From Pseudomonadota bacterium (GTDB taxonomy: Bacteria; Pseudomonadota; Alphaproteobacteria; Acetobacterales; Acetobacteraceae): DNA of 53,176 nucleotides. The stretch is from contig JAJZFA010000049.1 in the NCBI GenBank assembly GCA_021805565.1, positions 1 through 53,176 of the forward strand. The letters are read 5' to 3'. The translations under genes and the position numbers were made by a program. The notes under the pieces are model-generated. The model searched no databases. It saw only the letters and a list, made by a program, of their open reading frames with translations, and was not told the origin of the DNA. This document shows positions 20,515-38,048 of the stretch, piece by piece (positions within the stretch are counted from its first letter, which is position 1; each line of letters opens with the position of its first letter).

Positions 20515-20518
20515 CGCC

Positions 20519-21434: not shown

Positions 21435-21469
21435 GCCGCAATCCGAAGCGATAATTGTCGAGCAGGCCC

Positions 21470-22372: not shown

Positions 22373-22700
22373 CGTCCCGGCCTTCCGGGGAACGGCCGGC
22401 GGCCGGGTCGCCAGTATCTGAACACCATCGCTTCCTGCCGATCGAACCCGACATCGCGTCGAGGTAACATACCCGTGATATTATCTGCCCGACGTTAAGT
22501 CCATGATTACCGCACCGAGTAGCGGACATCGGGGGTCGATCGTCCGGCCGCGTTTCGCTTGCGTCTTGGCCAGACACCGCCAGCGGGGCCAGGCACGCGG
22601 GACAGTCGGCCGTCTGGCGTCCCATGGATATGGAGCGGCTCGCCGGCCCGGTCGTCGCGCGGGTCGAGTCCAGGGGTGGCGAGCCTGAATTCGATTGCGC
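22373..22700. other. Intergenic gap of 328 bases
   Basis: The gap lies upstream of the HtrA-like gene and downstream of an MFS gene. Open frames that cross it are extensions of shadows. It probably contains the HtrA-like gene's promoter around 22440-22500. I see nothing else. Confidence 0.5.
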
Positions 22701-23861
22701 TTAATTCGTCCTCAGCCGCAACGGCAGCAGAAACGTGGCTGCCACTGTCGCCGCGGCACCGCACAGCAGAAAGACGTCCAATGCCGGCAATACGCCCAGC
22801 AGCGGCGCGGTTACGGTGGGTGCCGCTGCTTGCGCCAACAACACCGGCACCGCCAGCCATCCCAATCTCTGAGCGTAACCAGCCGGTCCGAAGATCGCCA
22901 GCGGCAGCGTGCCTCGATTGATGGTCATGATGCCATTGCTCATGCCGTACAGTAACGCGAACGTCGCGGCGGCATACGGCCCGCCCGGCAGTAGCGCGCA
23001 GGCACCTATAGGAAACAGCAAAGCCCCGATCCGAGCCTTGGTCAGCAGACCGATGCGCGGTCCGATGGCATATTCCAGTAGGCGACCCGCCACCTGTCCT
23101 GGCCCGATCGAGGCGGCGACGCCCACAGCCTGCGCCGGCGTCAGATCGATCCCGCGCAGCAGCGCCAGGACATCCACCGCGATGACCGACGTGATGAACC
23201 AGCGCAGTGCGAAGAACCCGCTTAGCAGAACCATTGCCCGCCACTCGGTGGGCGAACGGCCTGCATCGCCGGCAGCGGCCGCCGCGTGCGGCCGGGGCGG
23301 TGCGTGCGGTATCAGCAGCCAAACCATCGGCAGGTTGACCGCCAGCATCAGTCCCGCATACGTCAGTAACAATCCTCGCCAGTGCAGCGCACCGATCAGC
23401 GCCGCACCCAGCGGCCAGAACACAGTGCTGGAAAATCCCGCCACCAGCGTAATCCCCGTGATGCTCGGCCCGGCTTCCTGCCCCAACAGTCCGCCGACCG
23501 TCGCGAAGGCTGCGTCGTACAGCCCCATCGCCATGCCGGCGCCAATAATTGTCCACCCGCAATACCACACCGTCAGGTTGGGTGTGAACGCCAGCACCGC
23601 CTGCCCGGTGGCGATCACCAGAATACTGGCGAGCAGCGCCCCACGCCCGCCATGCCGGTCGATCCACCGGCCCACTTTAGGCGCGCAGGCGCCAGCCACC
23701 AGCAGCGACCAGGAAAACGCCCCAAGGATATGAAGCCCGGACTGGTCCAGACTTTTGCCAACCGGTCCGGCGACGATCGCCGGCAGATAGAACGTCATGC
23801 CCCAGGACAAAGTCTGGTTGATACCCAGTACGGCGCCGAGGCGGAAACGGGATGCGGCCAT
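22701..23861 (-). CDS. MFS transporter
   Basis: A 386-residue, 12-segment facilitator. The N-terminal FRLGAVLGINQTLSWGMTFY and the loop motif GRWIDRHGGRGAL (about 63-75) are typical of the oxalate/formate-like or NNP-like carriers. Its 5' end lies near the divergent esterase promoter, 104 bases away. The substrate is unknown; a pairing with the esterase would suggest an ester or acid. Confidence 0.85.
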   Translation of the reverse strand: MAASRFRLGAVLGINQTLSWGMTFYLPAIVAGPVGKSLDQSGLHILGAFSWSLLVAGACAPKVGRWIDRHGGRGALLASILVIATGQAVLAFTPNLTVWYCGWTIIGAGMAMGLYDAAFATVGGLLGQEAGPSITGITLVAGFSSTVFWPLGAALIGALHWRGLLLTYAGLMLAVNLPMVWLLIPHAPPRPHAAAAAGDAGRSPTEWRAMVLLSGFFALRWFITSVIAVDVLALLRGIDLTPAQAVGVAASIGPGQVAGRLLEYAIGPRIGLLTKARIGALLFPIGACALLPGGPYAAATFALLYGMSNGIMTINRGTLPLAIFGPAGYAQRLGWLAVPVLLAQAAAPTVTAPLLGVLPALDVFLLCGAAATVAATFLLPLRLRTN

Positions 23862-23965
23862 GTCCGGATTATCCGCCGGATCGGGCTGTGCAACAATCCA
23901 TCGCGCGATGTTGTCCAGACCGGGGGCGCCGTTGTACAGTCGGGAAAACCAATGGAGGCGTCCTC

Positions 23966-24838
23966 GTGCATCGTGCGCCCTGCGACTATACCGTCGCCGA
24001 TTTCGACTATGTCGAACATCAGGATGGACCTCAGCGCCTACGGCTGTTCATGCCGGTCGGAACCGGGCCGTCTCCCGTCGTCGTGGATATCCACGGCGGC
24101 GCGTGGTGCAAACAAGACCTGAAGGATTGCGAACCGCGCGACCTTACCCTGGTTCGCTCGGGCATCGCCGTTGCGGCGGTGAATTTCCGCCACGCCGGAT
24201 CGGGCTATCCGGCGTCCCTGGAGGATATCAATTATGCCATCCGCTGGCTGAAGGCCCATGCGGGCCAATTCGGCCTGCGTGCCGATGCGGTCGGCCTCTG
24301 CGGCCAAAGCAGTGGCGGCCATCTCGCCATGCTGTCGGCGATGCGTCCGGCCGATCCGCGTTATATCGCCGTGGCTTTGCCAAATTTAGGCGCTTTGCCC
24401 GGCGGCGCGGCGGCAGATGCCTCCGTCAAGGCAGTGGCGATGCTATGGCCCGTTATCAATCCGCTGTCGCGCTATCGCAACGTGGTGCGCCTGCGCGATG
24501 CCGGCAATCCGCCCGCCTGGGTCGGCGATCTTCCGGATCGCCACGATCTATACTGGAAAACCGAAGCGGCCATGGCGGAGGGCAATCCGATGCTGATCCT
24601 GGAGCGCGGGGAGAACGCGGTTCTGCCGCCGGCCCTATGGGTGCAGGGCAGGCCCGACCCGGTGCACGATTATCGCGACCCGGAAGCGCGTTTCGACGGG
24701 AACGAACCAGAACGGTTTGCGCACACCTACCGTCAGGCCGGCGGATCGCTGGACCTGCTGTATATCGACAATGCGGCACGCGAAACCGGGGCGTCGCACG
24801 ATCCGGTTGCCGCGTTCTTCCTGCGCCACCTAACCTGA
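23966..24838 (+). CDS. Alpha/beta hydrolase, carboxylesterase-like
   Basis: A 290-residue hydrolase of the BD-FAE/HSL-like class. The oxyanion motif is VDIHGGAWCK (about 37-46) and the nucleophile elbow is CGQSSGGH, the Ser of GxSxG. The His is probably in GASHDPV near residue 280. The start is a GTG at 23966 with GGAGG 8 bases upstream; earlier codons overlap the opposite gene's start region. The last 9 bases overlap the end of the convergent MFS gene. Confidence 0.8.
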   Translation: MHRAPCDYTVADFDYVEHQDGPQRLRLFMPVGTGPSPVVVDIHGGAWCKQDLKDCEPRDLTLVRSGIAVAAVNFRHAGSGYPASLEDINYAIRWLKAHAGQFGLRADAVGLCGQSSGGHLAMLSAMRPADPRYIAVALPNLGALPGGAAADASVKAVAMLWPVINPLSRYRNVVRLRDAGNPPAWVGDLPDRHDLYWKTEAAMAEGNPMLILERGENAVLPPALWVQGRPDPVHDYRDPEARFDGNEPERFAHTYRQAGGSLDLLYIDNAARETGASHDPVAAFFLRHLT

Positions 24839-26161
24839 CCGGATCGCCCGCGAACGCGGACGCCGGAGGTCCAGCATCGCCAGGGCGGCGGGGATCGTTG
24901 CCGCGATGCGGAACGTGGTCTGGAACGCTGCCATGAATCCGTTTGGCGTGGCTGGCCCAAGGCTTTGGAAAATCAGCATCAGGACCGTGGCACCCGTGAC
25001 GGTGCCGATACTGCGCGTCGCCATCCCAAGTGCGCCGGCCACGCCGCGGTTGCGAGCGGGGACAACGGCGGTGACGATATCGAAATAGGCGACCTGGAAC
25101 AGCCCCATGCCGACACCCTGAACCGCCATCGACAGGACCAGAACCGGCAGATCGGCGCCGCTGCCGGACAACGAAATGCCAAACAGTCCGGCGCTGCTAA
25201 GGATGGACCCGGCCAACGCGATCAGCCGCGGTTTATAGTGTTGTGCCAGCCAACCGGCCACCGGAGCGGCCGCGATGGTGCCGGCCGGCGATGCCGCCAG
25301 GATCAGCCCGGCCACTGGGAGCGACAGTCCGGGAATTCGGCTGAGGTAGAACGGCGCCAGCAGCATGATGGAGAACGCCGACAGGTTGATCAACGCGTTG
25401 CCGAGATTGATGACGGCGAAGTCCGCATTCCGGAACAACCCGAAATCGATAATCGGCTTCGGCACCCTGTGTTCCTGCCGGTAAAACAGCCAGAACCCTG
25501 CCGCGGCCAGGATCGCGAAGACCGCTGTTGGCAGTCCCGGCGGACGCAGCCGGTTCAGCGCCAGCAGCATGAAGCTGAGTGCCGCGGCTAAAAGCAGGCC
25601 GCCGGCCGCGTCGAACGGTTCTCGCTCGCCGCGCACCGGCCGGGGCAGCGTCCATGTCAATAAAAATGCGGCCGCGGCAACCGGGGCCCTGAAGGCGAAC
25701 ACAGCGCTCCACCCGAAGCGTTCGACCAGCAGACCGAACACCGACGGACCCAGTGCGCTGCCGATTCCGAACATGGTCATGTAGATGGCCAGGACACGGG
25801 TTCGCCGGTCTTCAGGGTAGAGGCTGGTGGCCAGGGCCGGGCCGCAGGACAGGATCAGCCCGGCACCGATGCCCTGCACGACGCGAGCGGCCAGCAGTGC
25901 GGCGTAGTCTGGCGCCAGGGCGCAGGCTATGAACGCCAATGTGCTGACAGCGGTGCCGGCCAGGAAAACCCGGCGGTACCCCAGCAGATCGCCGACCCGG
26001 CCGAAGCTCAGCATTAAGGCGGTCTGTGTCAGCACATAGCTGACGACGATCCACTGGATCATCGGGATCGGCAGATGGAAATGCGCGACGATGGCCGGAA
26101 AGCCGATATTAACCGCCGAATCCAGCGGCACGACAGCGGTGCCGAGTCCGACGATCAGCAA
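24830..26161 (-). CDS. MFS transporter, DHA2 (EmrB/QacA) type
   Basis: A 443-residue carrier whose N-terminus carries the DHA2-type pattern TAVVPLDSAVNIGFPAI and motif A (FGRVGDLLGYRR, about 53-64), with LAARVVQGIGAG (motif B) near 95. About 13 or 14 segments fit. It begins 17 bases after the molybdenum-hydroxylase gene and should be co-transcribed with it, suggesting uptake or export of that enzyme's substrate. The assignment of direction is not possible from sequence. Confidence 0.85.
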   Translation of the reverse strand: MLIVGLGTAVVPLDSAVNIGFPAIVAHFHLPIPMIQWIVVSYVLTQTALMLSFGRVGDLLGYRRVFLAGTAVSTLAFIACALAPDYAALLAARVVQGIGAGLILSCGPALATSLYPEDRRTRVLAIYMTMFGIGSALGPSVFGLLVERFGWSAVFAFRAPVAAAAFLLTWTLPRPVRGEREPFDAAGGLLLAAALSFMLLALNRLRPPGLPTAVFAILAAAGFWLFYRQEHRVPKPIIDFGLFRNADFAVINLGNALINLSAFSIMLLAPFYLSRIPGLSLPVAGLILAASPAGTIAAAPVAGWLAQHYKPRLIALAGSILSSAGLFGISLSGSGADLPVLVLSMAVQGVGMGLFQVAYFDIVTAVVPARNRGVAGALGMATRSIGTVTGATVLMLIFQSLGPATPNGFMAAFQTTFRIAATIPAALAMLDLRRPRSRAIRSG

Positions 26162-26178
26162 CGAAACGACCGGATGTT

Positions 26179-28452
26179 TCAGCGGCCGGGACCTTGCATG
26201 GCGTGCCAGACCCGTGACGCCGAGGCAGGGCCGTTCAGCCCGGTAACGCCCACCGCGTCGGCGATGGCGTTCGCGATCGCCGGGAACAGGGCAATGGCAC
26301 CGGCCTCGCCGCAGCCCTTTACGCCCAGCGGATTGGTCGTGCAGCGCGTGGCCGAGAAGGTCAGATCGAAACTGGGCAGGTCTCCGGCGCGAGGCATGGC
26401 GTAGTCCATGAAACTGCCGCTCACCGGCTGGCCGGACTCCGGATCGTACGCCGCATGCTCCATCAACGCCTGTCCGGCCCCCTGGGCAATAGCGCCATGC
26501 ACCTGCCCGGCCGCAATCATCGGATTAACGAGAACGCCGTAGTCATCCACAGCGGTCAGGCGTTCCAAGGTGACGGCGCCGGTATCCGGATCGACCTCGA
26601 CCTCGGCGATGTGGGTGCCGTTGGGGAACGTCATCGCGTCCCGCGTCCAGCGATGATAGGTGTCGAGAGTGCCAGGGTGGCGCGCGGCCAGGTCCAGAAG
26701 GCCGATGGTTCGGTCGGTGCCGGCGACCCGAAATAAACCCTCGCCGAATACGATGTCGGCTTCGGCCGCTTCCAACGCCTGGGCCGCCAGCGTCTTGCCC
26801 TTCGCGACAATGATCCCGGCGGCCCGCCAGATCGCGGTTCCCCCCATATAGGTGGCGCGGGAACTGCCATGGCCGCCGCCCATCGCGATAAGGCCGGTGT
26901 CGCCCTGTTTCAGCCGGACGATGGCGTTTGCCAGGCCAAGCCGATCCGCGACAATTTGCGGCATGGTGGTCTCGTGGCCCTGACCGATGGTCTGGGTTCC
27001 CACGATCAGCGAGACCGTTCCGTCCAGTTCGAAGCGAATCTCCACGTTTTCCGTGGGCAAGCCCCCGGTCGCCTTGATGTGGCAGGCCAGCCCGATGCCG
27101 CGCCGCTTGCCAGTTTTTTCGCTGGCCCGGCGCCGTTCCGGGAAGCCGGCAACCCCGGCGTTGGTCACTGCCCTGTCGAATGCCGCCCGGAAATCGCCGC
27201 TGTCCACACTGAAGTTCAGCGCATTGATCATCGGCGTATCCGCCACAAAATTGCGGCGGCGCAAGTCGATGCGGTCGAACCCGCATTGGCGTGCCGCCGC
27301 ATCGATCAGGCATTCCATGATGTTGACCGCCTCGCCGAAGCCAGGACCGCGTGTCACGCCGGTCGGGGTGGTGTTGGTCAACACCGCGCGCACACGCAGG
27401 CCGATGGCTGGGATGGCGTAAACGGTGCCCTGCAAATGCGGATACTGGTTGGTCTGCACGCCGCCCGCGCCGCCCGCCATATACGCGCCCAGATTGGCGA
27501 CGCTGTCCACGTGCAGCGCCGTGAACCGGCCCTGGGCATCCAGCGCCAGGGTTGCCGTGGCGACATGATCCCTGGCCTGATGATCCGACAAAAATGTTTC
27601 CGCCCGCGTGGCGATCCACTTCACCGGCCGGCCCGTGCGGCGCGCGGCCCACAGGATCAGTGCGTGTTCGGCATACGCGAAATTCTTCGCGCCGAAGCCG
27701 CCGCCGACATCGGGCGCGACGAAGCGAACCATCGTGGGGTCCACGCCAAGCACCATGGCGGCGATATCGCGGTTGCCATGGATATTCTGACTGGAAACAT
27801 GCAGCGTATAGCTGCCATCGTAGAGTCCGACCGCGCCGCGCGGTTCCATCGGGTTGGTGGCGACCCGGTGGTTGTCCAGCACGATCCTGACAACATGCGC
27901 CGCGGTTGCGATGGCCGTTGCTGCCTGGGCGGTCTGGCCCCATGTCCAGTCGATGCACAGATTGCCCGGTACAGCGGCGGTCAACAGCGGTGCATCCGAT
28001 TGCAGCGCGTCTGTGCCGCGCGTGACGGCCGCCAGCGGCGCATACGTGACGGCGATCCGTTCGGCGGCGTCCAGTGCCTGATTTTTCGTTTCCGCCACGA
28101 TGAGCGCCACTGGTTCGCCGGCATAGCGCACCGTATCCACGGCCAGCAGCGGTTGCGGCAGGAAGCGGAACGGTTCGCCGGTCTGGACGTTGGCCTCGAC
28201 GGTTGGATGCAGCGGCGACAGGCGGTCTGCCGCGGCCTCGCGGGCGGTCAGCACGGCAAGAACGCCAGGGGCTTGAAGGGCTGCCGCCGTATCGATGGCG
28301 TCGATCCGGGCGTGTGCGTGCGGCGAGCGGAGGAACACGGCATGGGCCTTGTTCGCGAACGGCAGGTCGTCCAGATAAACGCCTCGGCCGGCGATGAAGC
28401 GGGCATCTTCCCGCCTGCGCGGGGAATCCCCGATTATGGCTCGGTCGCTCAT
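26179..28452 (-). CDS. Molybdenum hydroxylase large subunit (CoxL/XdhB-like), orphan
   Basis: A 757-residue aldehyde-oxidase/xanthine-dehydrogenase family large subunit binding molybdopterin cytosine dinucleotide. Family marks include the N-terminal SPRRREDARFIAGRGVYLDDL, VVGGGFGAKN-type APDVGGGFGAKN (about 250), GQTIGQGHETT-like TIGQGHETT, and the catalytic Glu in GVKGCGEAGAI near the end. The CoxL active-site loop (AYRCSFR or AYRGAGR) is replaced by TRGPGFGEA, so it is not a CO dehydrogenase. The [2Fe-2S] and FAD subunits that normally complete these enzymes are not encoded nearby. Start Met at 28452 is preceded by GGGAGGAAA. It is divergent from the FCD regulator. Confidence 0.9.
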   Translation of the reverse strand: MSDRAIIGDSPRRREDARFIAGRGVYLDDLPFANKAHAVFLRSPHAHARIDAIDTAAALQAPGVLAVLTAREAAADRLSPLHPTVEANVQTGEPFRFLPQPLLAVDTVRYAGEPVALIVAETKNQALDAAERIAVTYAPLAAVTRGTDALQSDAPLLTAAVPGNLCIDWTWGQTAQAATAIATAAHVVRIVLDNHRVATNPMEPRGAVGLYDGSYTLHVSSQNIHGNRDIAAMVLGVDPTMVRFVAPDVGGGFGAKNFAYAEHALILWAARRTGRPVKWIATRAETFLSDHQARDHVATATLALDAQGRFTALHVDSVANLGAYMAGGAGGVQTNQYPHLQGTVYAIPAIGLRVRAVLTNTTPTGVTRGPGFGEAVNIMECLIDAAARQCGFDRIDLRRRNFVADTPMINALNFSVDSGDFRAAFDRAVTNAGVAGFPERRRASEKTGKRRGIGLACHIKATGGLPTENVEIRFELDGTVSLIVGTQTIGQGHETTMPQIVADRLGLANAIVRLKQGDTGLIAMGGGHGSSRATYMGGTAIWRAAGIIVAKGKTLAAQALEAAEADIVFGEGLFRVAGTDRTIGLLDLAARHPGTLDTYHRWTRDAMTFPNGTHIAEVEVDPDTGAVTLERLTAVDDYGVLVNPMIAAGQVHGAIAQGAGQALMEHAAYDPESGQPVSGSFMDYAMPRAGDLPSFDLTFSATRCTTNPLGVKGCGEAGAIALFPAIANAIADAVGVTGLNGPASASRVWHAMQGPGR

Positions 28453-28521
28453 CGATCCGGTTTCCTCCCGGCCGTTAGTTTGGGCGGGGCAAAGGGAAGC
28501 TGCAAGGGAGCGTGCCTGTGC

Positions 28522-28544
28522 GTCCATGTCCGCCTCGCATGGAC
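28522..28544. promoter_or_regulatory. Inverted repeat between hydroxylase and regulator genes
   Basis: GTCCATG (28522-28528) and CATGGAC (28538-28544) are perfect 7-bp arms separated by nine bases. They sit in the middle of the 133-base divergent spacer, 42 bases before the regulator start. It could be the operator of the FCD-GntR protein, though the geometry differs from the usual TNGTNNNACNA of FadR sites, so this is tentative. Confidence 0.4.
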
Positions 28545-28585
28545 ACCGCGAAATGCGATCGGGTATAGTTGCCCAATAACACGGA

Positions 28586-29380
28586 ATGCCGATGCCGAAC
28601 GACGCGGATGCAACGAAAAACCCAGCTTCCATCCAGCGCCTGGGCCTGGGTCTGGCGGCGGCCGATCGCCCCGGCCCCGTTCGGACGCGGCGCGTGTTCG
28701 AGGATATATGTGAGCGTATCCGTAACGAGCTGATTTCTGGCGCGCTGAAACCAGGCGACCGGCTGGCATCCGAACGGGAACTGGCCGAGAGTTATGGCGT
28801 CAGCCGCACCGTCGTGCATGAAGCCCTGATCATCCTGGAAATCGCCGGCATTCTTAAGCTGCGCAAAGGACGTAGCGGCGGGGCCTTCGTCACCGACCTC
28901 AGTCCGGACCTGTTTACCAGGTCATTTCGCGATATGCTGGATTTCGGGCAGGTTTCGCTGGCCATGCTGCTGGAGGCTCGCGCGATCATCCAGGTCGCGG
29001 TCGTGCAAACCGCCTGTGTTCGCGCGACGGAGCGGGATTTCGCCCGACTGGAGCAGAATATCGATGAAACCGAGGCCTTGACGTTGGCTGGACGTTTTGA
29101 TGAAAGAACATTCAAGGCGATCGAATTCAACGTTATCCTGGCCGAGACGGCTCACAACAAAGTTTTGGCGACGGTTGTCGAGGCGTTGTCCTCGGTTTTG
29201 CGTGGCTTCGTTGCCTCGGCCGGTCCGCAGCCGCATGACCCTGTTATCGCGTCGCGGCGCACGTTGCTGGCGCGTATGCGCGATCGCGATCGGCAAGGAG
29301 CGGCGGCGTCCATGACCGAACACTTCGACGGGCTGAACCGACACTTGTTGGGAGCCGACGGCGCGGACCGGCGGGATTAA
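28586..29380 (+). CDS. GntR-family regulator, FCD/FadR subfamily
   Basis: A 264-residue repressor. The winged HTH occupies about residues 35-105 (LKPGDRLASERELAESYGVSRTVVHEALIILE, with recognition helix SRTVVHEAL). The C-terminal all-helical FCD domain runs from about 120 to 255 with metal/ligand-type His and Asp residues (SVLRGFV, DRDRQGAAASMTEHF). Such proteins sense carboxylates or CoA-linked intermediates. It lies between two divergent operons, so it likely controls the hydroxylase-MFS unit and perhaps the acyl-CoA genes. It is convergent with the DUF35 gene, eight bases downstream. Confidence 0.88.
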   Translation: MPMPNDADATKNPASIQRLGLGLAAADRPGPVRTRRVFEDICERIRNELISGALKPGDRLASERELAESYGVSRTVVHEALIILEIAGILKLRKGRSGGAFVTDLSPDLFTRSFRDMLDFGQVSLAMLLEARAIIQVAVVQTACVRATERDFARLEQNIDETEALTLAGRFDERTFKAIEFNVILAETAHNKVLATVVEALSSVLRGFVASAGPQPHDPVIASRRTLLARMRDRDRQGAAASMTEHFDGLNRHLLGADGADRRD

Positions 29381-29387
29381 ACCGGCG

Positions 29388-29807
29388 TCATCCGTTCGGG
29401 CGTGCGGCAAAAAGCGGCCCGTCGGTGTAAAGGAGCGTCACGATCTCCACCGGCGTATCCAGCTTCGGCGCTTCGTCCGATAGCAGCCGGGTGGCAATGC
29501 GCAGGCCCTCCTGAAGATCCACGATTCCCACCCGGTACGGAGCTTCGTCCCGGAATATCGCGGGTGCGGCATGGATCATGGTCTGCGCATACAACCGGCC
29601 GTGTCCCGACAGCCCAGTCCAGCGGGTCCGCGTACTCCAGCAATGCGGGCAGAACGTCTTCGGCGGGAAGCTGAGCTTGCCGCAATCTTCGCAAACCGTC
29701 GTTTCCAGCCGGCCTTGTGCGACGCTGTCCCAGAATCGCTGGGTGAATGCCGTGACGCGGGGTGGATAAGCGCGGACCCGATCGACCCGTACGATGTCCA
29801 GCGTCAT
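29388..29807 (-). CDS. DUF35 OB-fold/zinc-ribbon protein
   Basis: A 139-residue protein with the two-part DUF35 layout: an N-terminal rubredoxin-like zinc ribbon with Cys39, Cys42, Cys53 and Cys56 (CEDCG, then FCPHC), followed by an OB fold (GRLYAQTMIH, then APYRVGIVDL) near 70-110. DUF35 proteins bind CoA esters and form complexes with thiolase-like or MaoC partners, including the ChsH2-Ltp2 steroid retro-aldolase. Its ATG overlaps the stop of the thiolase-like gene (ATGA), which fits a two-protein complex. Here it is a free-standing protein, not fused to MaoC. Confidence 0.88.
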   Translation of the reverse strand: MTLDIVRVDRVRAYPPRVTAFTQRFWDSVAQGRLETTVCEDCGKLSFPPKTFCPHCWSTRTRWTGLSGHGRLYAQTMIHAAPAIFRDEAPYRVGIVDLQEGLRIATRLLSDEAPKLDTPVEIVTLLYTDGPLFAARPNG

Positions 29808-30997
29808 TGCACGGCCTCCAGGATATGAACCATCGCGGCGTTGTAATTCCCTAGTTCGGCACTCGTCATTCCCAGCCGGGCACCTTCGACCTGACGCGCA
29901 CCCGCCCGGCCGCGTAACTGATCCGCGATTTCGACAAAACTGTAGAACGGGGTGACGTACGCCGGATGTCCGCGCGATTGCAGTCCGCCAGAGGTGCAGA
30001 TGGGGATGCGCCCGCCCAGGGAGGTCTGCCCTTCCGCGCATTGCCTTGCGCCCTGACCGCGCGGTACCAGCCCAAAGGCTTCGCTGGCGAGCACTTCGAC
30101 GATGGTGCATGGCGCGTACAGTTCGGCAACGTCGATGTCGGCCGGCGTAATGCCGGCTTGCGCGAACGCCGCCCGTCCGGCGGTCTGCGCGGCGATCAGC
30201 GCGATCATGTCGTTCGGTACTTCGTTGATCTGGTGCGCGCCTTCGTGGAAAAAACTTTGGCCGCGCAGTCTTGCGTATGGGCGCCCGGTCGCCCGCGCGA
30301 CATCTTCCGACGCCAGCACGATACAGACCGCGCCGTCTGCCCGGCCAGGAACTTCATACAGACCCAACGGTTCAACGATCGGCGCCTGTGCCAGCACCTG
30401 TTCCAGCGTGATCGGCTTGCGATATTGTGCGATTGGATTCAGCACCGCATGCGCCCGGTTTTTCACCGCGACCGTTGCCAGTTCCTCGCGCGAGGAATTG
30501 AATTCATGGATATAGCGCGCCGCATCCATCGCGTACCAGGAAATCGGGGTGAACCCGAACGGAACATGGAAATCCACGTCGCCGGTGGTGCGCATGGAGC
30601 TCATCATGTGATCGGCGGACGACGTTGCGGTCTCGAAATTGACTCCGAGCGCAAGCGCGACCTTGGCCTTGCCGAGGCGAATTTCATCGACAGCGCCCTG
30701 GAACGCCAGCGCCGCGGTCATGCCGTTACCCATGATCTCGGCGACCGAACCTGCGCACGGCAACCGCAGATAATTCGCCATGAATGTCGCGAAATACTTC
30801 TGCTGTGTGTACGGCCGGGCAAGCGAGAAAATCATGGAGCCGATATCGGATTTATCGACCCCGGCATCGGCCATTGCCTCCATGACCAGCTTGGCCAGCA
30901 CCTCGTGCTCCAGGACCGCGGGGACAACGCCCGGCGCGGTCTGCCACTTTCCCACAGGCAGCGCGGCGGTCCCCAGAATGGCGACGGCTTCTGTCAT
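29804..30997 (-). CDS. Thiolase-like protein without catalytic Cys, Ltp2-type
   Basis: A 397-residue SCP2-thiolase-family protein. The N-terminal half has the usual layout (LAKLVMEAMADAGVDKSDIG, FATFMANYLRLP). Where thiolases have the nucleophilic Cys (ENACASGSTA), this protein reads AEIMGNGMTA with Met89. The C-terminal GHP motif is kept (GGLQSRGHPAYVT). Cys-less members paired with DUF35, such as Ltp2 and DitF, act as retro-aldolases or acetyl transferases, not thiolases. It is transcribed just ahead of its DUF35 partner. It starts at MTEAVAILG, 48 bases after the frame opens, with AGGAGGA upstream. Confidence 0.85.
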   Translation of the reverse strand: MTEAVAILGTAALPVGKWQTAPGVVPAVLEHEVLAKLVMEAMADAGVDKSDIGSMIFSLARPYTQQKYFATFMANYLRLPCAGSVAEIMGNGMTAALAFQGAVDEIRLGKAKVALALGVNFETATSSADHMMSSMRTTGDVDFHVPFGFTPISWYAMDAARYIHEFNSSREELATVAVKNRAHAVLNPIAQYRKPITLEQVLAQAPIVEPLGLYEVPGRADGAVCIVLASEDVARATGRPYARLRGQSFFHEGAHQINEVPNDMIALIAAQTAGRAAFAQAGITPADIDVAELYAPCTIVEVLASEAFGLVPRGQGARQCAEGQTSLGGRIPICTSGGLQSRGHPAYVTPFYSFVEIADQLRGRAGARQVEGARLGMTSAELGNYNAAMVHILEAVQ

Positions 30998-31025
30998 GGT
31001 TGTCCTCCTCCCGTTCGATAACGTC

Positions 31026-31063
31026 TTGACAGCGCTATCGCACACTTCTAGCTAAATGGCTAG
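31026..31063 (+). promoter_or_regulatory. Candidate promoter with overlapping inverted repeat
   Basis: TTGACA lies at 31026-31031. About 17 bases further the -10 region is overlapped by the inverted repeat CTAGC (31048-31052), six bases, GCTAG (31059-31063). It is between the divergent thiolase-like and ligase genes. A repressor bound there would block the rightward promoter. The -10 match (TAGCTA) is weak, so it is a hypothesis. Confidence 0.4.
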
Positions 31064-31105
31064 GCCAAATAAATATGCCGTGCCGCATACCGGAAGCGGA
31101 TGGCC

Positions 31106-31135
31106 GGCGTGCGGACGGGCGGCGTGCGGACGGGC
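31106..31135 (+). repeat. Exact 15-bp tandem duplication in the ligase leader
   Basis: The unit GGCGTGCGGACGGGC is present at 31106-31120 and again at 31121-31135 without a mismatch. It ends directly before the ligase ribosome-binding site (GGAGGAAG, 31136). A copy change would move the leader but not the reading frame. Confidence 0.75.
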
Positions 31136-31145
31136 GGAGGAAGAA

Positions 31146-33290
31146 ATGGTGGCTTCGGAGCGCGGTATCTACACGCGGCGAGATCTCGAACGGCTGATAA
31201 ATCCGCGCCGGGTTGCCGTGGTTGGGGCGTCTGAAACCCCCGGATCGTTCGGCCAGCGCACCCTGGCGAACATGGCGGATTTCTCTGGAGAGGTTTTCGC
31301 CGTCAATCCCAAATACACCGCCCTGCTCGGTCGTCCCTGCGTTCCGTCGATCGGGGCATTGCCTTACGCGCCGGATTGCATCGTCTTATGCGTGGGGCGC
31401 GAAATGGTGCCCGCCATGGTCGCGGCGGCGGGTGCCATCGGTGCCGGCGGCGCGATTGTCTATGCATCCGGCTTCAGCGAAACCGGCAAGCCGGAACGTA
31501 TCGGCGAACAGAACGATCTAATCGCGCTTTCGCATCGTACCGGTGTGCGTATCGCCGGGCCGAACTGCGTCGGGCTGGCGAACACAGCTTCGCGGGCGGG
31601 CCTGAATTTCATGCCGGATTACGCGAAAATGGGGCATCGCCGCGGACCGGTCGGAATCGTTTCGCAAAGCGGCGCGCTCGGCTACACGATACTACAGGCG
31701 ATGGGCCGCGGAATCGGGTTCACGCACTATCTCGCTGCCGGCAATTCCGCCGATGTCGATGTCTGCGACTATATCTCGTATTTGGCCGAGGATGACGATA
31801 CCAGGGCGATCGTTTGCCTGTTCGAGGGCGTGAAAGACGGCGGCCGCTTCCTTCAGGCGGCGCGCAGGGCGCGCGAGGCCGGCAAGGCGCTGATCGTTTA
31901 TAAAGCCGGCAACGGCGAGGCCAGCGGCAAGGCCGCACTGTCGCATACCGGAACGATGGTCGGCTCGTCGGCGGCATATCAGGCGGCGTTCCGCGAGGCC
32001 GGCTGCATCGCCGTGGACAATCTGGAATCGGTTCTGGAACGCGCGAATTTCTTCGCGAAAGCGAAGGCACCATTAAGCCGAAACGGCATCGGCGTTCTGT
32101 CAACGTCTGGCGGCGCGTCAGTGATCTGCGCCGATAAAGGAGAGGAATATGGCGTAAAGCTGCCGCCGCTGGCGCCGGCGACAGAAGCCGCGCTGAACAC
32201 GGTGGTTCCGGATTTCGGTTCGGTTGCCAATCCGTCCGACCTGACGGCCGAGGTGCTGAAGACCGCTGAAACATTCGGCTTCTGCCTCGACGCATTCGTC
32301 GCCGATCCTGGCTATAGCGCGCTCGTTATTCCCATGGTGTTCGCCCACAGCTCCGCGAGCGGCACCCGAGCGGTGCGGCTGAGCGAGACGGCGAAACGAA
32401 CCGACAGGCCGATCGCCGTGATCTGGATGAATGAATGGCTCGAAGGCCCTGGCAGCGAGGCGTTCGATAGCGACCCGCGCATCTCGACATTCCGCTCCGC
32501 CGATCGATGCTTCGCGACGCTACGGGCATGGTTCGATTGGCATGCGGCGAAGCCCATGTTGGCCCAGCCGCGCCTGACGCCGGCTGGCGCCGCTGCCGAG
32601 GCCCGGGCGACGATCGAAGCAGCCAGAACCAAGGGTCGGGCGCTTAACGAAGCAGATTCAAAACGGATCCTGGCGGCCTACGGTATCGCGGTGCCCAAGG
32701 AAATACTGGCAGCCGATCCGGAACAGGCGGCCGAGGCGGCGTCCCAAATCGGCTTTCCCGTGGTGGCCAAGATCGTATCCGCCGATATTCCCCATAAAAC
32801 CGAGGCCGGCGGCGTGCGGCTGTCATTGCGAACAAGCGATGAAGTCCGAGAAGCCGCAACCGCGATTCTTCGATCCGCGAAGGCGTACGCGCCGGCCGCG
32901 ATCATCAATGGAATCAGCATCCAGCAGATGCTGCCGCCCGGTATCGAGCTTGTGGCCGGAATCAAGCAAGACCGGCAGTTCGGGCCGCTGATCGCTGTCG
33001 GTTTTGGCGGTGTCGCCGTCGAACTGTTAAGCGACAACGCGGTTAGCCTCGCGCCGGTGGGAATGGAAGGGGCGCTAGCCATGCTGCGCCGTCTGAAAAT
33101 GTTCCCCCTATTGAATGGCTATCGCGGCGCGCCGACAGCCGATCTGGACCCTCTTGCCAGCCTGATTGTTCGCTTGTCGGAACTCGGATCGGACCTGCGC
33201 GACACGATCGACGAGATCGATGTCAATCCGGTCATCGTACGCCCAGACGGGGCCGTTGCGGCCGATGCGCTCGTTGTGTTGCAGGCTTGA
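31146..33290 (+). CDS. ADP-forming acyl-CoA synthetase (acd-like fusion)
   Basis: A 714-residue fused alpha-beta NDP-forming acyl-CoA synthetase. The CoA-binding Rossmann part is at 15-130 (RRVAVVGASETPGSFG). The succinyl-CoA-synthetase-like part follows with the phospho-His motif LSHTGTMVGS (His267). An ATP-grasp domain lies at about 480-714 (VVAKIVSADIPHKTEAGGV, GVAVELLSDN). It activates a carboxylic acid to its CoA ester at the expense of ATP, giving ADP and Pi. It would be the entry step for this island. GGAGGAAG precedes the ATG; the upstream 30 in-frame codons lie over promoter DNA and are not coding. MaoC starts within 10 bases. Confidence 0.92.
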   Translation: MVASERGIYTRRDLERLINPRRVAVVGASETPGSFGQRTLANMADFSGEVFAVNPKYTALLGRPCVPSIGALPYAPDCIVLCVGREMVPAMVAAAGAIGAGGAIVYASGFSETGKPERIGEQNDLIALSHRTGVRIAGPNCVGLANTASRAGLNFMPDYAKMGHRRGPVGIVSQSGALGYTILQAMGRGIGFTHYLAAGNSADVDVCDYISYLAEDDDTRAIVCLFEGVKDGGRFLQAARRAREAGKALIVYKAGNGEASGKAALSHTGTMVGSSAAYQAAFREAGCIAVDNLESVLERANFFAKAKAPLSRNGIGVLSTSGGASVICADKGEEYGVKLPPLAPATEAALNTVVPDFGSVANPSDLTAEVLKTAETFGFCLDAFVADPGYSALVIPMVFAHSSASGTRAVRLSETAKRTDRPIAVIWMNEWLEGPGSEAFDSDPRISTFRSADRCFATLRAWFDWHAAKPMLAQPRLTPAGAAAEARATIEAARTKGRALNEADSKRILAAYGIAVPKEILAADPEQAAEAASQIGFPVVAKIVSADIPHKTEAGGVRLSLRTSDEVREAATAILRSAKAYAPAAIINGISIQQMLPPGIELVAGIKQDRQFGPLIAVGFGGVAVELLSDNAVSLAPVGMEGALAMLRRLKMFPLLNGYRGAPTADLDPLASLIVRLSELGSDLRDTIDEIDVNPVIVRPDGAVAADALVVLQA

Positions 33291-33298
33291 AAGGAAAA

Positions 33299-33760
33299 AT
33301 GACCATGGCTGGACTTTTTATTGAGGAATTCGTCGTCGGCAGCGTGGCAATCAGCCCCGGACGAACCGTGACCGAAACCGATATCGTGTCGTTTTCCTGG
33401 GTGTCCGGCGACACCAATCCCATGCACACCGATGCCGAATATAGCGCCAAATCGCCAATCGGCCAGCGCATCGCGCATGGAGCGCTCGGTCTTTCGATTT
33501 GCACGGGCTTGAGCGCCCGGCTGGGATATCTGGATGGCACCGCCATCGCCGCGCTGGGCGTGGACGAATGGAAGTACTTAAAGCCCATATACCTGAACGA
33601 TACGGTGACTTTGCGAGCAACCGTGGTCGAAGCACGGACAACGTCCAAGCCAGATCGGGGCGTGCTGGTCCGCCGGATGGACTTGCTCAACCAGCACGGC
33701 GACCTGCTGCAAACCGGCCTGATGACAACGATGGTGCGTACACGCGCCGCCGCAAAGTAG
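33299..33760 (+). CDS. MaoC-like (hotdog) enoyl-CoA hydratase
   Basis: A 153-residue single-hotdog protein with the hydratase-2 signature: Asp38 and His43 in SGDTNPMH, then the Gly/His-rich GQRIAHGALGLS. It hydrates trans-2-enoyl-CoA to (R)-3-hydroxyacyl-CoA, or acts as heteromer subunit. Start ATG at 33299 follows AAAGGAAAA; a second in-frame ATG lies six bases later. It sits between the ligase (8 bases) and an acyl-CoA dehydrogenase (9 bases), clearly an operon. Confidence 0.88.
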   Translation: MTMAGLFIEEFVVGSVAISPGRTVTETDIVSFSWVSGDTNPMHTDAEYSAKSPIGQRIAHGALGLSICTGLSARLGYLDGTAIAALGVDEWKYLKPIYLNDTVTLRATVVEARTTSKPDRGVLVRRMDLLNQHGDLLQTGLMTTMVRTRAAAK

Positions 33761-33769
33761 GAACGCATC

Positions 33770-34924
33770 ATGGACGCCGTAAATCTGTTTGGTCTGACCG
33801 AACAGCAGCGGATGGTGCGCGCAAGCGTGCTGGACCTGCTGAGCAAAACGTTGCCATGGCCGCTCATCCGCGAGCTGGACGAAGCCCGGGCCTTTCCGCA
33901 TGCGGCCTATGATGCGCTCGCCAAGGCTGGCTTCATGGGCTTGTTCTACCCGGAGGAATACGGCGGCGCAGGGGGCAGCCACAAGGACTTCACCGCCCTG
34001 ATCGAAGCTCTTGGTTACTACTACACCGGCATTGCACAGGCCTATATGACAACAGTCATCTATGCCGGCATGCACGTGGTGAAGTTTGGGAGCCAGGATC
34101 TGAAAGCCGAGATCGTTCCGAAGATTGTCAGCGGCGATGTCAAGCTCGCTTTGGCCATGTCCGAACCCGGGACAGGATCGGATGTAGCGGGTATCCGGAC
34201 ACGGGCCGAACGCGACGGCGACGACTATATCCTGAATGGGCAAAAAGTCTGGATCACCTGTGCCCATGTCGCGGATTACCTCGTGGCGATTTGCAAGACC
34301 GACATTGCCGCCGAACGGCACCGTGGCATGAGCGTACTACTGGTGGATGCCAAGGCGCCCGGTGTGACGATCCGTCCGTTGAAAATGCTGGGACGCCGGA
34401 CCACCCACGCCAATGAAGTTTTTTTCGAGAATGTGCGTGTCCCGAAACGCTGTCTGCTGGGGGAGGAGAATGCGGCCTGGAAAAACCTGATGCACTGCCT
34501 TGGTGTCGAACGCCTGTGCCTTGCCGCTATCTCTGCCGGCCATTGCGCAAAGATAACCGAATATGCGACCGATTATGCCAAACAGCGGATACAGTTCGGC
34601 AAACCGATCTCGGATTTCCAGGCCATTCAGCATAAACTGGTGGATATGGCGATCATGACCGAGACCGCGCGCCAATCGATCTGGCGGGTTGCCGAACTGC
34701 TGGATGGCGGGCAACCCGCCGTCCGGGAATTGTCCATGGCCAAGATTATCTGCACCGACAACAATTTCCGCTGCGCGGACATCGGGCTTCAGGTAATGGG
34801 CGGCGCGGGCTACTCGGAAGAATACGATATGGCGATGTTCTTTCGCGATTCGCGCGTCGGACCGATCGGCGGCGGCAGCAATGAGATCCAGCGTAACGTC
34901 ATCGCCAAGCAGATGGGCATCTGA
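33770..34924 (+). CDS. Acyl-CoA dehydrogenase
   Basis: A 384-residue flavin-dependent acyl-CoA dehydrogenase with complete fold. It has the FAD/substrate signature AMSEPGTGSDVAGI (about 128-141), WITCAHVADY and the C-terminal GPIGGGSNEIQRN. At the position of the catalytic Glu in MCAD-type enzymes (IYEGT) this protein has Gly368 (IGGGS), so any base must come from elsewhere, as in isovaleryl- or long-chain-type enzymes. It would make an alpha,beta-unsaturated CoA ester for the MaoC hydratase upstream. Confidence 0.9.
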   Translation: MDAVNLFGLTEQQRMVRASVLDLLSKTLPWPLIRELDEARAFPHAAYDALAKAGFMGLFYPEEYGGAGGSHKDFTALIEALGYYYTGIAQAYMTTVIYAGMHVVKFGSQDLKAEIVPKIVSGDVKLALAMSEPGTGSDVAGIRTRAERDGDDYILNGQKVWITCAHVADYLVAICKTDIAAERHRGMSVLLVDAKAPGVTIRPLKMLGRRTTHANEVFFENVRVPKRCLLGEENAAWKNLMHCLGVERLCLAAISAGHCAKITEYATDYAKQRIQFGKPISDFQAIQHKLVDMAIMTETARQSIWRVAELLDGGQPAVRELSMAKIICTDNNFRCADIGLQVMGGAGYSEEYDMAMFFRDSRVGPIGGGSNEIQRNVIAKQMGI

Positions 34925-34942
34925 CAAGCGGAGGTCGATATC

Positions 34943-36262
34943 ATGCTTTCACACGAAGATAACGAAAAGCTGGTCCGCGTCGGCGCGGGGACCCCAATGG
35001 GCGATTTATTTCGCCTTTACTGGATACCTTTCTATCTCTCCAAGGACTTGCTGCCCGACGGCCAGCCAAAACGTGTCAAGCTGCTCGGCGAAGATCTCGT
35101 GGCCTTCCGCGATACTCGCGACCGGGTCGGCCTGATCGCCAATGCTTGCGCCCATCGCGGCGCACCTTTGATGTTCGGACGCAACGAAGATTGCGGCATT
35201 CGTTGCGTCTATCATGGCTGGAAATACGATGTGACCGGCGCGGTGACCGACATGCCGGCCGAACCGCCCACCAGCCGTCTGAAAGAACGTGTTAAAATCA
35301 AGGCCTATCCATGCCAGGAGCGTAATGGCGTGGTCTGGACCTATATGGGGCCGGATCGGGCGCCGCCGCCGCCGCTGCCGGACATGGAGTGGAACCTGGT
35401 CCCGGCGGACAATGTGGCCATTACGGTGCGGGTGCAGGAATGCAACTGGCTACAGGCGCTGGAAGGCGAAGTAGACTCGGCGCACGCCCCTATCCTCCAT
35501 GGTCGGATCGATTCCAAAGGCGCGATCGGCGACTGGATCGCGGCGCGCGACCTCAAGCCGATGTTTCAATGCCAGCGCCAGGATTTCGGCGTCAGCATCG
35601 CCGCGAGGCGCCAACTGGATAACGGCCTACGCTACTGGCGGGTGAACCAGTTTGTACTGCCGTTTTATTCGCTGGTACCGCCGCAATCGAAGTTCCCCGA
35701 ACTCAGCGGACACGCCTGGGTGCCGATGGACGACGAACACACCCTGTGTATCATGTTTTCCTATCACCCGGTGGAACCGCTGCTGGCACGAACCCGCGCC
35801 ATTTTCGATGAAGGACACAACGGCCGCGAAAGCGGACATGCCAGCCGTCACGCCTATGCTCAGAAAAGTACTACCACGCCCTACGCGGATTTTTGGACCA
35901 AATATAATCCGGAAACTGGGTTTGCGTTCGATTACGAGAGCCAGAAAACCACCTGGTTTTCCGGCCTGCCCGGCCTTTGGGTGCAGGATGCGGCGTGTCA
36001 GTCTGGACTCGCCCCGATCTATGACCGCGGGACCGAACACCTGTGCACCAGCGACGCCGGTATCGTCATGGTTCGGCGGGTATTGCTCGACAGCGCGAAC
36101 GACTATCGCCAACACCGCACCCGGCCGCCAGGAGTCGATGATCCGCAGGTGTTTATGGTGCGGGCGCTGTCGATCACGTTGCCGGACGGAACAGACTGGT
36201 CGGAAGCCGGCCGGCCATTCATCAAAGCTTCGTTGGGGAGTGATTTCGGCTATCGGCCTTGA
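34943..36262 (+). CDS. Rieske non-heme iron oxygenase, alpha subunit
   Basis: A 439-residue oxygenase resembling phthalate-4,5-dioxygenase-type and O-demethylase-type alpha subunits. The Rieske [2Fe-2S] site has Cys69-x-His71 and Cys88-x2-His91 (CAHRG, then CVYHGWKYD). The mononuclear iron site uses His181 and His186 in EVDSAHAPILH, with a C-terminal acid. No ferredoxin or reductase gene lies in the window, so electrons must come from elsewhere. It is 18 bases after the dehydrogenase and closes this operon. The CoA genes and this oxygenase together suggest an aromatic or polycyclic substrate. Confidence 0.9.
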   Translation: MLSHEDNEKLVRVGAGTPMGDLFRLYWIPFYLSKDLLPDGQPKRVKLLGEDLVAFRDTRDRVGLIANACAHRGAPLMFGRNEDCGIRCVYHGWKYDVTGAVTDMPAEPPTSRLKERVKIKAYPCQERNGVVWTYMGPDRAPPPPLPDMEWNLVPADNVAITVRVQECNWLQALEGEVDSAHAPILHGRIDSKGAIGDWIAARDLKPMFQCQRQDFGVSIAARRQLDNGLRYWRVNQFVLPFYSLVPPQSKFPELSGHAWVPMDDEHTLCIMFSYHPVEPLLARTRAIFDEGHNGRESGHASRHAYAQKSTTTPYADFWTKYNPETGFAFDYESQKTTWFSGLPGLWVQDAACQSGLAPIYDRGTEHLCTSDAGIVMVRRVLLDSANDYRQHRTRPPGVDDPQVFMVRALSITLPDGTDWSEAGRPFIKASLGSDFGYRP

Positions 36263-36277
36263 ACGGCGTCTGTCCGG

Positions 36278-36451
36278 TCAGTCGTTGTCGCCCGGCCGGT
36301 GGATCACCCCGAGCCGGGCCAGTGCTTCGATCCTGGCGGTGTGATAGCCCAGGATTTCGCACAGGATTTCACCGGAATGCTGGCCGAGCACCGGTGCTGC
36401 AACCGGATCCGCGAGCGGCGTGCAAGAAAGCCGGAATGACAGGGCAATGTT
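36278..36451 (-). pseudogene. CaiB/BaiF CoA-transferase, C-terminal remnant
   Basis: The minus strand encodes about 57 residues like the end of family III CoA transferases: LSFRLSCTPLADPVAAPVLG, QHSGEILCEILGYHTARI and EALARLGVI. The rest of a 400-residue gene is missing. It sits directly behind the Rieske gene on the opposite strand, so it is debris from an earlier arrangement. Confidence 0.7.
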
Positions 36452-36600
36452 CGGAACTGTTCCGCCGCCGGCGTGCTGGTGCTGATAACGACGATGGAAG
36501 GTCTGGATTGCATCCCCGCATCGGCGGGATAGCCGTTCATCGACATGTAGACGCTTTGCGCCTGGCCTATGGGGTCGAACCCCATCCGGTCTTTCAACGG

Positions 36601-36752
36601 CCAGTCGTGGAAGAAGCGTTGAAACAAATTCCGGTCCGGCGCCTGGGCGTTCCTCGGGATATCGCATCGGCGGTGGCGTTTCTGGCATCGGAGGAATCCT
36701 AGTTCATTACAGGGGCGGTCTCGACGTGAATGGCGGGATTTTCATGGCCTGA
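36601..36752 (+). pseudogene. Short-chain dehydrogenase, C-terminal remnant
   Basis: The plus strand encodes VVEEALKQIPVRRLGVP, RDIASAVAFLASEES, then TAG (36700-36702), FITGAV and, in another frame, VNGGIFMA before TGA 36750. This is the SDR tail (PLGRxGxPEEIAxxxxFLAS...ITGxxxxVDGG). One nonsense and one frameshift separate it from a functional end, and the N-terminal part is absent. Confidence 0.7.
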
Positions 36753-36839
36753 GACCGGTACCCACCGGTCGCCGGATGAATCAGGTCTGGAGGGTTGCCG
36801 GGCGTGCCTGACATCGAACAGTAAAAAAGGGAGGATATC

Positions 36840-38048
36840 ATGAAAACTAGCTTGTTCGGGTTTGCCGTTTGCGCGGCGGCTGCCTTGGTTTCGGCGGTGG
36901 CGGTGGCGGTGGCGGTGGCGATGGCGGCCGAGCCGCTGCGAATAGGATTCTTGACCGATATGAATGGCCCAAGTGCCATCAACGACGGTCCAGGTTCCAT
37001 CACGGCGGCCCGGATGGCAATCGCGGATTTTGGCGGTTCGGTGCTAGGACGCCCGATCGAATTGCTGACCGGCGATCATCACAACAAACCGGATGTGGGC
37101 CTGGCGACCGCTAAAGAATGGTACACTGTCAACGGTGTGGATGCCATCATGGATGTCAACAACTCAGCCGTAGCGCTTGGCATTCAGAGTCTGACCCGCG
37201 AGCTGAATAAAGTCTTTCTGATCACGGGCGCGTCGTCTTCGCTGCTGACCGGGAAGAACTGTACCCCAAATAGCGTTCAGTGGCTAACCGACACCTATTC
37301 CCTGTCGCGGGCGGCGGTGATGCCCACGATCGCCGACGGAGGCAAGAGTTTTTACTTTTTGACCGTTGATTATGCGTTCGGCCATGCACTACAGAAAGAC
37401 GCGACATCGGTGCTACAGGCAAACGGCGGAACGCTGGCCGGCGGTGCGTTGCATCCCTATGCGACAACCGATTTTTCGGCTTATTTGATCCAGGCTCAGG
37501 CGTCTGGCGCCCAGGTGCTGGTCTTCGCCGATTCCGGCCAGGACATGGAAAACGCCGTCAAGCAGGCGCAGGAATTCGGCGTCAAGATGCGCCTTGTTCC
37601 GTTGCTGATGCTGATCATGGACGTTCACAGTGTCGGTTTGGACGCGATGCACGGTACACGCTTCGCCGATGTCTTCTACTGGGATTCGAATGATAAAAAC
37701 CGGGCATGGTCGAAACGTTTTTTCGAGGCCGAACACCATATGCCGACGGCGCTGCAGGTCGATGCTTACCGAGCAACGATCCATTATCTGCAAGCGATCC
37801 AGACAGCCGGCACGACCGAGGCCGGGGCAGTGGTGAGGCAGATGAAAAAAGACCCAATCCACGATGTGCTCGGTGACGGCGGAACGATACGCGAAGACGG
37901 GCGGGTCATTCGCGACATGCATTATTACGAAGTAAAATCTTCGGCCGAGTCCAAATATCCCTGGGACTATTACCGCCTGATCCGGGATATTCCGGCTGCT
38001 CAGATTTACCGGCCATTGCCGGAAAGCGAGTGCCCCCTGGTCAGGTAG
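36840..38048 (+). CDS. Periplasmic substrate-binding protein, LivK-like type I
   Basis: A 402-residue ABC-type periplasmic binding protein of the branched-chain-amino-acid/aromatic-acid class (Peripla_BP_6 fold). The signal peptide (about 1-29) contains AVAVAVAVAM produced by a hexanucleotide repeat and is probably cleaved near MAAEPLRIG. The mature start LRIGFLTDMNGPSAIN is the usual first strand and ligand loop. It ends with a Cys-containing tail. No permease or ATPase genes accompany it in the window. It follows the catabolic genes, so a substrate related to that island is likely. GGGAGG lies 5 bases before the ATG. Confidence 0.88.
   Translation: MKTSLFGFAVCAAAALVSAVAVAVAVAMAAEPLRIGFLTDMNGPSAINDGPGSITAARMAIADFGGSVLGRPIELLTGDHHNKPDVGLATAKEWYTVNGVDAIMDVNNSAVALGIQSLTRELNKVFLITGASSSLLTGKNCTPNSVQWLTDTYSLSRAAVMPTIADGGKSFYFLTVDYAFGHALQKDATSVLQANGGTLAGGALHPYATTDFSAYLIQAQASGAQVLVFADSGQDMENAVKQAQEFGVKMRLVPLLMLIMDVHSVGLDAMHGTRFADVFYWDSNDKNRAWSKRFFEAEHHMPTALQVDAYRATIHYLQAIQTAGTTEAGAVVRQMKKDPIHDVLGDGGTIREDGRVIRDMHYYEVKSSAESKYPWDYYRLIRDIPAAQIYRPLPESECPLVR
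36894..36923 (+). repeat. Hexanucleotide repeat in a signal peptide
   Basis: GCGGTG is repeated four times exactly at 36894-36917, followed by the near-copy GCGATG. It encodes alternating Ala-Val in the hydrophobic core of the signal peptide. Confidence 0.85.

Follow-up and report, generated by a model that had tools for sequence, protein, structure and literature searches.

A conserved and apparently uncharacterised catabolic module built on a thiolase-like protein and its DUF35 partner

The 53,176-nucleotide window analysed here (contig JAJZFA010000049.1 of an Acetobacteraceae bacterium, assembly GCA_021805565.1) carries on its reverse strand genes for a 397-residue thiolase-like protein with Pfam Thiolase_N and Thiolase_C_1 domains (THL; positions 29804-30997) and for its 139-residue DUF35 partner (29388-29807; zf-ChsH2 and OB_ChsH2_C), and on its forward strand genes for an NDP(ADP)-forming acyl-CoA ligase, a MaoC-type enoyl-CoA hydratase, an acyl-CoA dehydrogenase (ACAD) and a Rieske oxygenase. 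Relatives of these genes form a conserved, apparently uncharacterised catabolic module, and a literature search of open-licence PMC papers found no description of this gene set. Judging from the sequences, we give about an even chance to the module being one for carboxylic acid catabolism that ends in retro-aldol cleavage by the THL-DUF35 pair. In this scheme the ADP-forming ligase of the window would join the acid to CoA, ACAD would introduce a double bond, and MaoC would add water to give a 3-hydroxyacyl-CoA, which THL and DUF35 would then split into a ketone or aldehyde and a short acyl-CoA. We infer the reaction, the roles of individual residues and the order of steps from gene content, conservation, active-site residues and phylogeny. 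The chemistry proposed in an initial annotation of this DNA, modelled on the ACAD, MaoC and Ltp2/DUF35 aldolase sequence of steroid side-chain catabolism, is plausible; its claim of kinship with Ltp2 and the wider island that it drew are not borne out.

Conservation of the gene set

Of 7,998 candidates scored in a protein search with THL, 3,242 were relatives at E <= 1e-20, and the 120 relatives listed are 68-100% identical to it, with Sphingobium, Bradyrhizobium, Roseomonas, Burkholderia, Rhodococcus and Microbacterium among the source names. For gene neighbourhoods we used the best 80 of 145 THL-encoding stretches (L013-L092) from one scan of representative genomes with the patterns PI[AS]WYAMD and E[LIV]YAPCTI. 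These comprise 45 loci from Betaproteobacteria, 20 from Alphaproteobacteria and 9 from Actinomycetes; they are not independent, 29 of the 80 being from Comamonadaceae, and 22 are shorter than 17 kb. Neighbours were counted by tblastn with queries from the window or from relatives, at E <= 1e-15 and over at least half of the query, a procedure that misses unrelated enzymes.

DUF35 is found in 79 of the 80 loci and in all 79 adjoins THL on the same strand, an adjacency that exceeds chance, given that the gene for ParE, a window neighbour taken as control, is found in none. ACAD occurs in 54 loci (44 at 45% identity or more) and MaoC in 45 (32 at 45% or more), and both accompany the THL-DUF35 pair in 35, which agrees with the CoA-thioester route and the linkage proposed initially. 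The ligase is present in 23 loci, always at 40% identity or more, and the Rieske oxygenase in 15, 13 of them at 50% or more. The five-gene set of ligase, MaoC, ACAD, THL and DUF35 stands complete in 21 loci, including those of Humitalea, Paraburkholderia, Nocardia and Hydrogenophaga. The same five genes lie together on plasmids of Roseomonas gilardii, Achromobacter xylosoxidans A8 and Pacificitalea manganoxidans, with no oxygenase match within the 25 kb examined on these three plasmids.

Queries taken from annotated relatives added a CaiB-type CoA-transferase in 61 of the 80 loci (36 at 45% identity or more), a FAD_binding_2 oxidoreductase in 41 and a nitroreductase in 21, and the CaiB-type CoA-transferases often accompany the ligase or stand in its place. 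On a quick 81-row THL tree, scored for the 58 loci of at least 17 kb plus the window, the presence of the ligase requires at least 8 changes and that of the oxygenase at least 6. It therefore seems that these two have been swapped in and out repeatedly, while the THL-DUF35 core stayed fixed. The five genes make a set small enough to be expressed and assayed directly, and its wide spread offers many hosts in which the substrate might be found.

Active site and fold of THL

Where the thiolases 6esq, 7yvy and BbsB have ACASG or ACSAG, HDxF and GH, THL has GNGMT, YAPC and GHP. The position of the nucleophilic cysteine is thus occupied by Gly92 in 80 of 80 loci, the HDxF histidine is replaced by Tyr294, and the GHP histidine of thiolases is retained as His344. 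Gly92, Tyr294, Ala295, Pro296, Cys297, Arg342 and His344 are identical in all 80 loci and in a 45-row alignment; invariance at the sites of the two scan patterns is in part a product of selection by those patterns, outside of which lie Gly92, Arg342 and His344. Neither catalytic cysteine of thiolases is in place, and the name "acetyl-CoA acetyltransferase" that some sources give to THL is contradicted by this site. The description of THL as "Cys-less" holds for the nucleophile position; other cysteines exist, including the invariant Cys297.

An AlphaFold2 model of THL (mean pLDDT 85) matches the aldolases Sal and Ltp2, and its best fold matches include the structures of BbsAB and archaeal acetoacetyl-CoA thiolase. 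The catalytic residues of TcLtp2 are Tyr294 of YDHF and Tyr344, whereas CtSal relies on Tyr302 and Cys304 from its YDCY motif and has Gln352 where TcLtp2 has Tyr344 (PMC12329534; this and the other PMC papers below are cited from excerpts). TcLtp2 has a glycine at the nucleophile position, as THL does in Gly92, and both TcLtp2 and CtSal have a tyrosine at the position of the HDxF histidine, the Tyr294 of TcLtp2 aligning with that of THL. Beyond this tyrosine the sites diverge: Ltp2 combines Y-D-H-F with Tyr344 and Sal Y-D-C-Y with Gln352, but THL has Y-A-P-C and His344, and so lacks both the Y-D-(H/C) motif and the second catalytic residue, its Cys297 falling one residue past the position of Sal Cys304. 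In the MAFFT alignment Tyr344 of TcLtp2 falls on His344 with both GG pairs in register; the pairwise HMMER alignment places a gap nearby.

By residue identity, then, THL appears to share the base of the aldolases (Tyr294) and the GHP histidine of the thiolases, and the aldolase-like site proposed initially is recovered in that the nucleophile is missing and a tyrosine stands at the aldolase position. Tyr294 would act as the base and His344, or possibly Cys297, as the proton donor. If THL were instead a non-catalytic scaffold or some other acyl-CoA-binding protein, and the operon a fragment of beta-oxidation completed elsewhere, then the loss of both thiolase cysteines would be expected, and the genome does hold eight other thiolase-like matches, of which one of the seven read has intact CASG and HDCF motifs. 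That Y294, C297, R342 and H344 are the same in every one of the 80 loci argues for catalysis, however, and we think a scaffold improbable.

Phylogeny and known relatives

In the tree the THL clade sits with true thiolases, beside BbsB and acetoacetyl-CoA thiolase (split support 100/100), and a grouping with Ltp2/IpfD-type proteins is rejected by approximately unbiased (AU) tests (p-AU 0.0046 and 0.0011), on a tree with long branches that does not include Sal and with test clades named after the first tree was seen. The Ltp2 kinship claimed at the outset is not supported by these tests, and neither YDxF nor the second catalytic residues of Ltp2/Sal are there. Nor is the unfused DUF35 distinctive, since it has precedent in BbsA, as in the archaeal acetoacetyl-CoA thiolase complex, and in IpfE, which is also a separate gene. 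BbsAB (7pxp, 7pyt) and the archaeal acetoacetyl-CoA thiolase (6esq), on the same side of the tree as THL, differ from it in having the nucleophilic cysteine (ACSAG in BbsB, ACASG in 6esq) and HDxF where THL has Gly92 and YAPC.

TcLtp2-ChsH2 and CtSal-Shy (6ok1, 9myr; PMC12329534, PMC11321319) also pair a thiolase fold with a DUF35 partner and act after a hydratase. In Shy, DUF35 and a MaoC domain form a single fused protein, whereas DUF35 and MaoC are encoded by separate genes here. ChsH2 is presumably such a fusion as well. The ipfABDEF genes on plasmid pIBU218 of Rhizorhabdus wittichii MPO218 likewise encode a CoA ligase, a Rieske oxygenase, the thiolase-like IpfD and a separate OB-fold/DUF35 protein, IpfE, in an ibuprofen system that yields propionyl-CoA (PMC9195938, PMC11347016). 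Their ligase is AMP-binding and their dioxygenase of the alpha/beta type, in contrast to the NDP-forming ligase and single alpha LigXa_C oxygenase of the window; no MaoC is annotated in the ipfABDEF block, while the window has a MaoC gene; and IpfD carries YDAF and a tyrosine at position 344 in place of YAPC and His344. The combination of a thiolase-like protein, an unfused DUF35, a CoA ligase and a Rieske oxygenase is thus already known from the ipf genes (PMC9195938, PMC11347016), and the novelty lies in a separate THL clade with an unusual active site and in the breadth of the operon.

If THL were an ordinary aldolase of the Ltp2/Sal/IpfD kind, it would act on a steroid side chain or on an arylalkanoate. 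The gene types are alike, Tyr294 is held in common, the fold matches Sal and Ltp2, and on the ibuprofen plasmid an AMP-binding ligase and a Rieske dioxygenase occur alongside IpfD and the OB-fold IpfE. We consider such membership very improbable all the same, a little more so than a scaffold, in view of the AU tests (subject to the naming of groups after the first tree and the absence of Sal), of YAPC/H344 against YDxF/Y344, of a MaoC that is not fused to DUF35, and of the single ACAD gene. A steroid or bile-acid side-chain cluster as such is rejected by gene architecture, motif and tree. More tentatively than the retro-aldol step itself, for which chances are about even, we suggest that the THL clade may represent a third type of CoA retro-aldolase with the thiolase fold, one that arose from cysteine thiolases independently of the Ltp2-type proteins, with a Tyr294/His344 site (plus Cys297 and Arg342), and that it may be the signature of a widespread, undescribed acid-catabolic pathway in which the mode of CoA activation varies. 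If THL is a retro-aldolase, two thiolase-fold lineages arrived at such cleavage separately.

A second recurrent cluster was seen on plasmids of Variovorax, Delftia and Burkholderia plantarii (L093:15001-24847, L094:15001-20928 and L095:12001-17304). It consists of a Rieske oxygenase 58-67% identical to that of the window, a CoA transferase, an OB-fold/DUF35 protein and an Ltp2-type protein with Y[ED]xF and a tyrosine at position 344; a reductase lies beside the oxygenase in two of the three, and a FAD-dependent oxidoreductase is present in two. This cluster is a candidate for the breakdown of a ring acid by a CoA-dependent retro-aldol route. Plasmid pIBU218 itself holds a second set of lipid-transfer protein, OB-fold protein, enoyl-CoA hydratase and CaiB (L096:10939-14557), with a true Ltp2-type motif (YDHF and a tyrosine at position 344).

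Retro-aldol or Claisen-type cleavage

Activation, desaturation and hydration are all present in the module without a PF02737-type oxidation step, and we therefore favour direct cleavage of the 3-hydroxyacyl-CoA. Homologs of a PF02737-type 3-hydroxyacyl-CoA dehydrogenase were found in 3 of the 80 loci with four of the genome's own seven matches as queries; with one of those four as query, the 35 loci that have both ACAD and MaoC gave no match, in keeping with the ACAD-MaoC-cleavage logic of the initial annotation.

The main rival is Claisen-type chemistry, in which a THL without its nucleophilic cysteine would cleave a 3-oxoacyl-CoA with water or another nucleophile, or carry out a decarboxylation or acyl transfer, after a short-chain dehydrogenase/reductase (SDR) from outside the module had oxidised the 3-hydroxyl. 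The place of THL beside BbsB and acetoacetyl-CoA thiolase and the GHP histidine kept in 80 of 80 loci speak for such an enzyme, and SDR homologs occur in 9 of the 21 five-gene loci. In only 4 of these, however, is the SDR within 5 kb of THL, the other 5 matches being more distant, and the replacement of the nucleophile by glycine in every locus and of the HDxF histidine by tyrosine, together with the lack of a PF02737 match in the 35 loci, makes Claisen-type chemistry unlikely in our estimate, though less so than a scaffold or an ordinary aldolase. Our preference for retro-aldol cleavage stands at about even odds. Aldehyde dehydrogenase homologs are found in none of the 21 five-gene loci and in 10 of the 80 overall, a scarcity that hints, weakly, at a ketone product. 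If THL is a retro-aldolase, then cleavage without a 3-hydroxyacyl-CoA dehydrogenase extends much more widely than steroids and ibuprofen.

Ligase, MaoC, ACAD and oxygenase

By their conserved residues, all four enzymes encoded on the forward strand look enzymatically competent. The ligase (c.31146-33290; CoA_binding_2, Succ_CoA_lig and ATP-grasp_5) has the CoA-binding, Succ_CoA_lig and ATP-grasp domains and the phospho-histidine of the NDP-forming superfamily, in which this histidine is the site of transient phosphorylation (PMC6388921); it is His297 in the numbering of the 744-residue open reading frame, and all 23 ligase loci have it. The window ligase scores below the curated NCBIfam cut-offs. 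Superfamily and phospho-histidine are common to it, to feruloyl-CoA synthetase FCS1 (PMC6388921) and to 3-hydroxypropionate/4-hydroxybutyrate-CoA ligases (9y43, 8wzu), and an ADP-forming ligase is not the distinctive feature it had been taken for, an NDP-forming one being known for ferulate.

MaoC (c.33299-33760; MaoC_dehydratas) keeps D42 and H47 in 34 of 34 loci. In ACAD (33770-34924; Acyl-CoA_dh domains), Glu247 is invariant in 44 of 44 loci, and the usual C-terminal catalytic glutamate, as present in FadE3, is replaced by Gly or Ala in the same number. We take this shift of the glutamate to mark an isovaleryl-CoA-dehydrogenase-like site, assuming the residue roles generally ascribed to these enzymes.

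In the oxygenase alpha subunit (34943-36262; Rieske and LigXa_C domains, LigXa_C/phthalate-dioxygenase group) the cluster ligands and D-x2-H-x4-H are retained by all 13 loci, and Asp349 by 12 of them. Asp349 is presumably the third iron ligand, on ligand roles that we likewise assume. The protein matches 7fhr, which we take to be RO-CH34 of Cupriavidus metallidurans, over its full length, with Rieske and iron-ligand residues in common. Also close to it are the 7fjl and 9ina groups, which we read as the phthalate and isophthalate dioxygenases of Comamonas testosteroni KF1; phthalate dioxygenase (PDO) binds the carboxylate through R207 and R244 (PMC12445078). The equivalent of R244 is kept in the window oxygenase (R233), but that of R207 is Ala200, and phthalate is therefore unlikely as its substrate. 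As a part-time member of the module, the oxygenase would probably hydroxylate a carboxylate-bearing, likely aromatic, ring. The island encodes no reductase for it; two homologs of a linked reductase are found elsewhere in the genome.

Layout of the island and occurrence in the lineage

Pfam and NCBIfam searches of the reading frames at 24830-38048 confirm the domains first named in all ten island proteins. The ligase frame opens at 31056 (744 residues) with a probable start at 31146, and MaoC is a TTG-initiated frame from 33287 with a likely start at 33299. With the likely start codons, 8 bases lie between ligase and MaoC, 9 between MaoC and ACAD and 18 between ACAD and the oxygenase, and the divergent THL and ligase starts are separated by 148 bases. 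The DUF35 start lies inside the THL stop in a 4-base ATGA overlap, and the protein combines a rubredoxin-like zinc ribbon (C39-x2-C-x10-C-x2-C) with an OB fold.

A forward-strand GntR/FCD regulator (28586-29380; GntR and FCD domains) is convergent with DUF35 and divergent from the reverse-strand pair of a molybdenum hydroxylase (26179-c.28452; MoCoBD_1/2 and Ald_Xan_dh_C) and an MFS transporter (24830-26161; MFS_1). Of the 80 loci, 46 have a homolog of the regulator, which in 9 reaches at least 45% identity. One Variovorax locus (L057:8964-9956) has a flavin reductase domain and an FCD domain fused in a single frame beside THL, and the cluster of this fusion (c15) is seen in 12 loci. What was called a molybdenum hydroxylase is its large subunit, and the scan of the ten island proteins turned up neither a FAD nor an Fe-S subunit; five homologs at 43-49% identity lie elsewhere in the genome. 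The periplasmic binding protein (36840-38048, forward strand; Peripla_BP_6) starts 577 bases 3' of the oxygenase end, with ParE next, and because of this gap it is probably outside the oxygenase operon and weakly associated.

The initial annotation had counted the hydroxylase, the MFS carrier and the binding protein in the set. By tblastn, the window's hydroxylase and carrier each have matches in 0 of the 80 THL loci and are rejected as members, probably lying outside the conserved module, and the binding protein is found in 5, once at 45% identity or more. Only part of the 24830-38048 island thus belongs to the conserved unit.

The predicted co-occurrence in relatives holds for the core, but within its own lineage THL was found in only 4 of the 118 genomes searched (E <= 1e-100), the window's own included. 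One of the other three is of the same genus and has matches to FCD, DUF35, THL, ligase, MaoC, ACAD and oxygenase in unchanged order, with short reading frames for the ligase (462 residues) and oxygenase (307 residues). In 12 of 12 congeners read, DUF35, THL, ligase, MaoC and oxygenase are absent from the 3' flank of ParE. This rarity and the lack of these genes in the flanks suggest that the island is probably accessory. The ParE site (38213-40255 in the window, and the 3' flank) may be a variable one: one congener (L121) has an MFS homolog of 53% identity beside ParE, and others have weak MFS, SDR, LLM or ACAD matches. Upstream, window positions 19465-24838 encode an LLM flavin monooxygenase, an SDR, an MFS protein and a BD-FAE esterase, which may share the accessory stretch.

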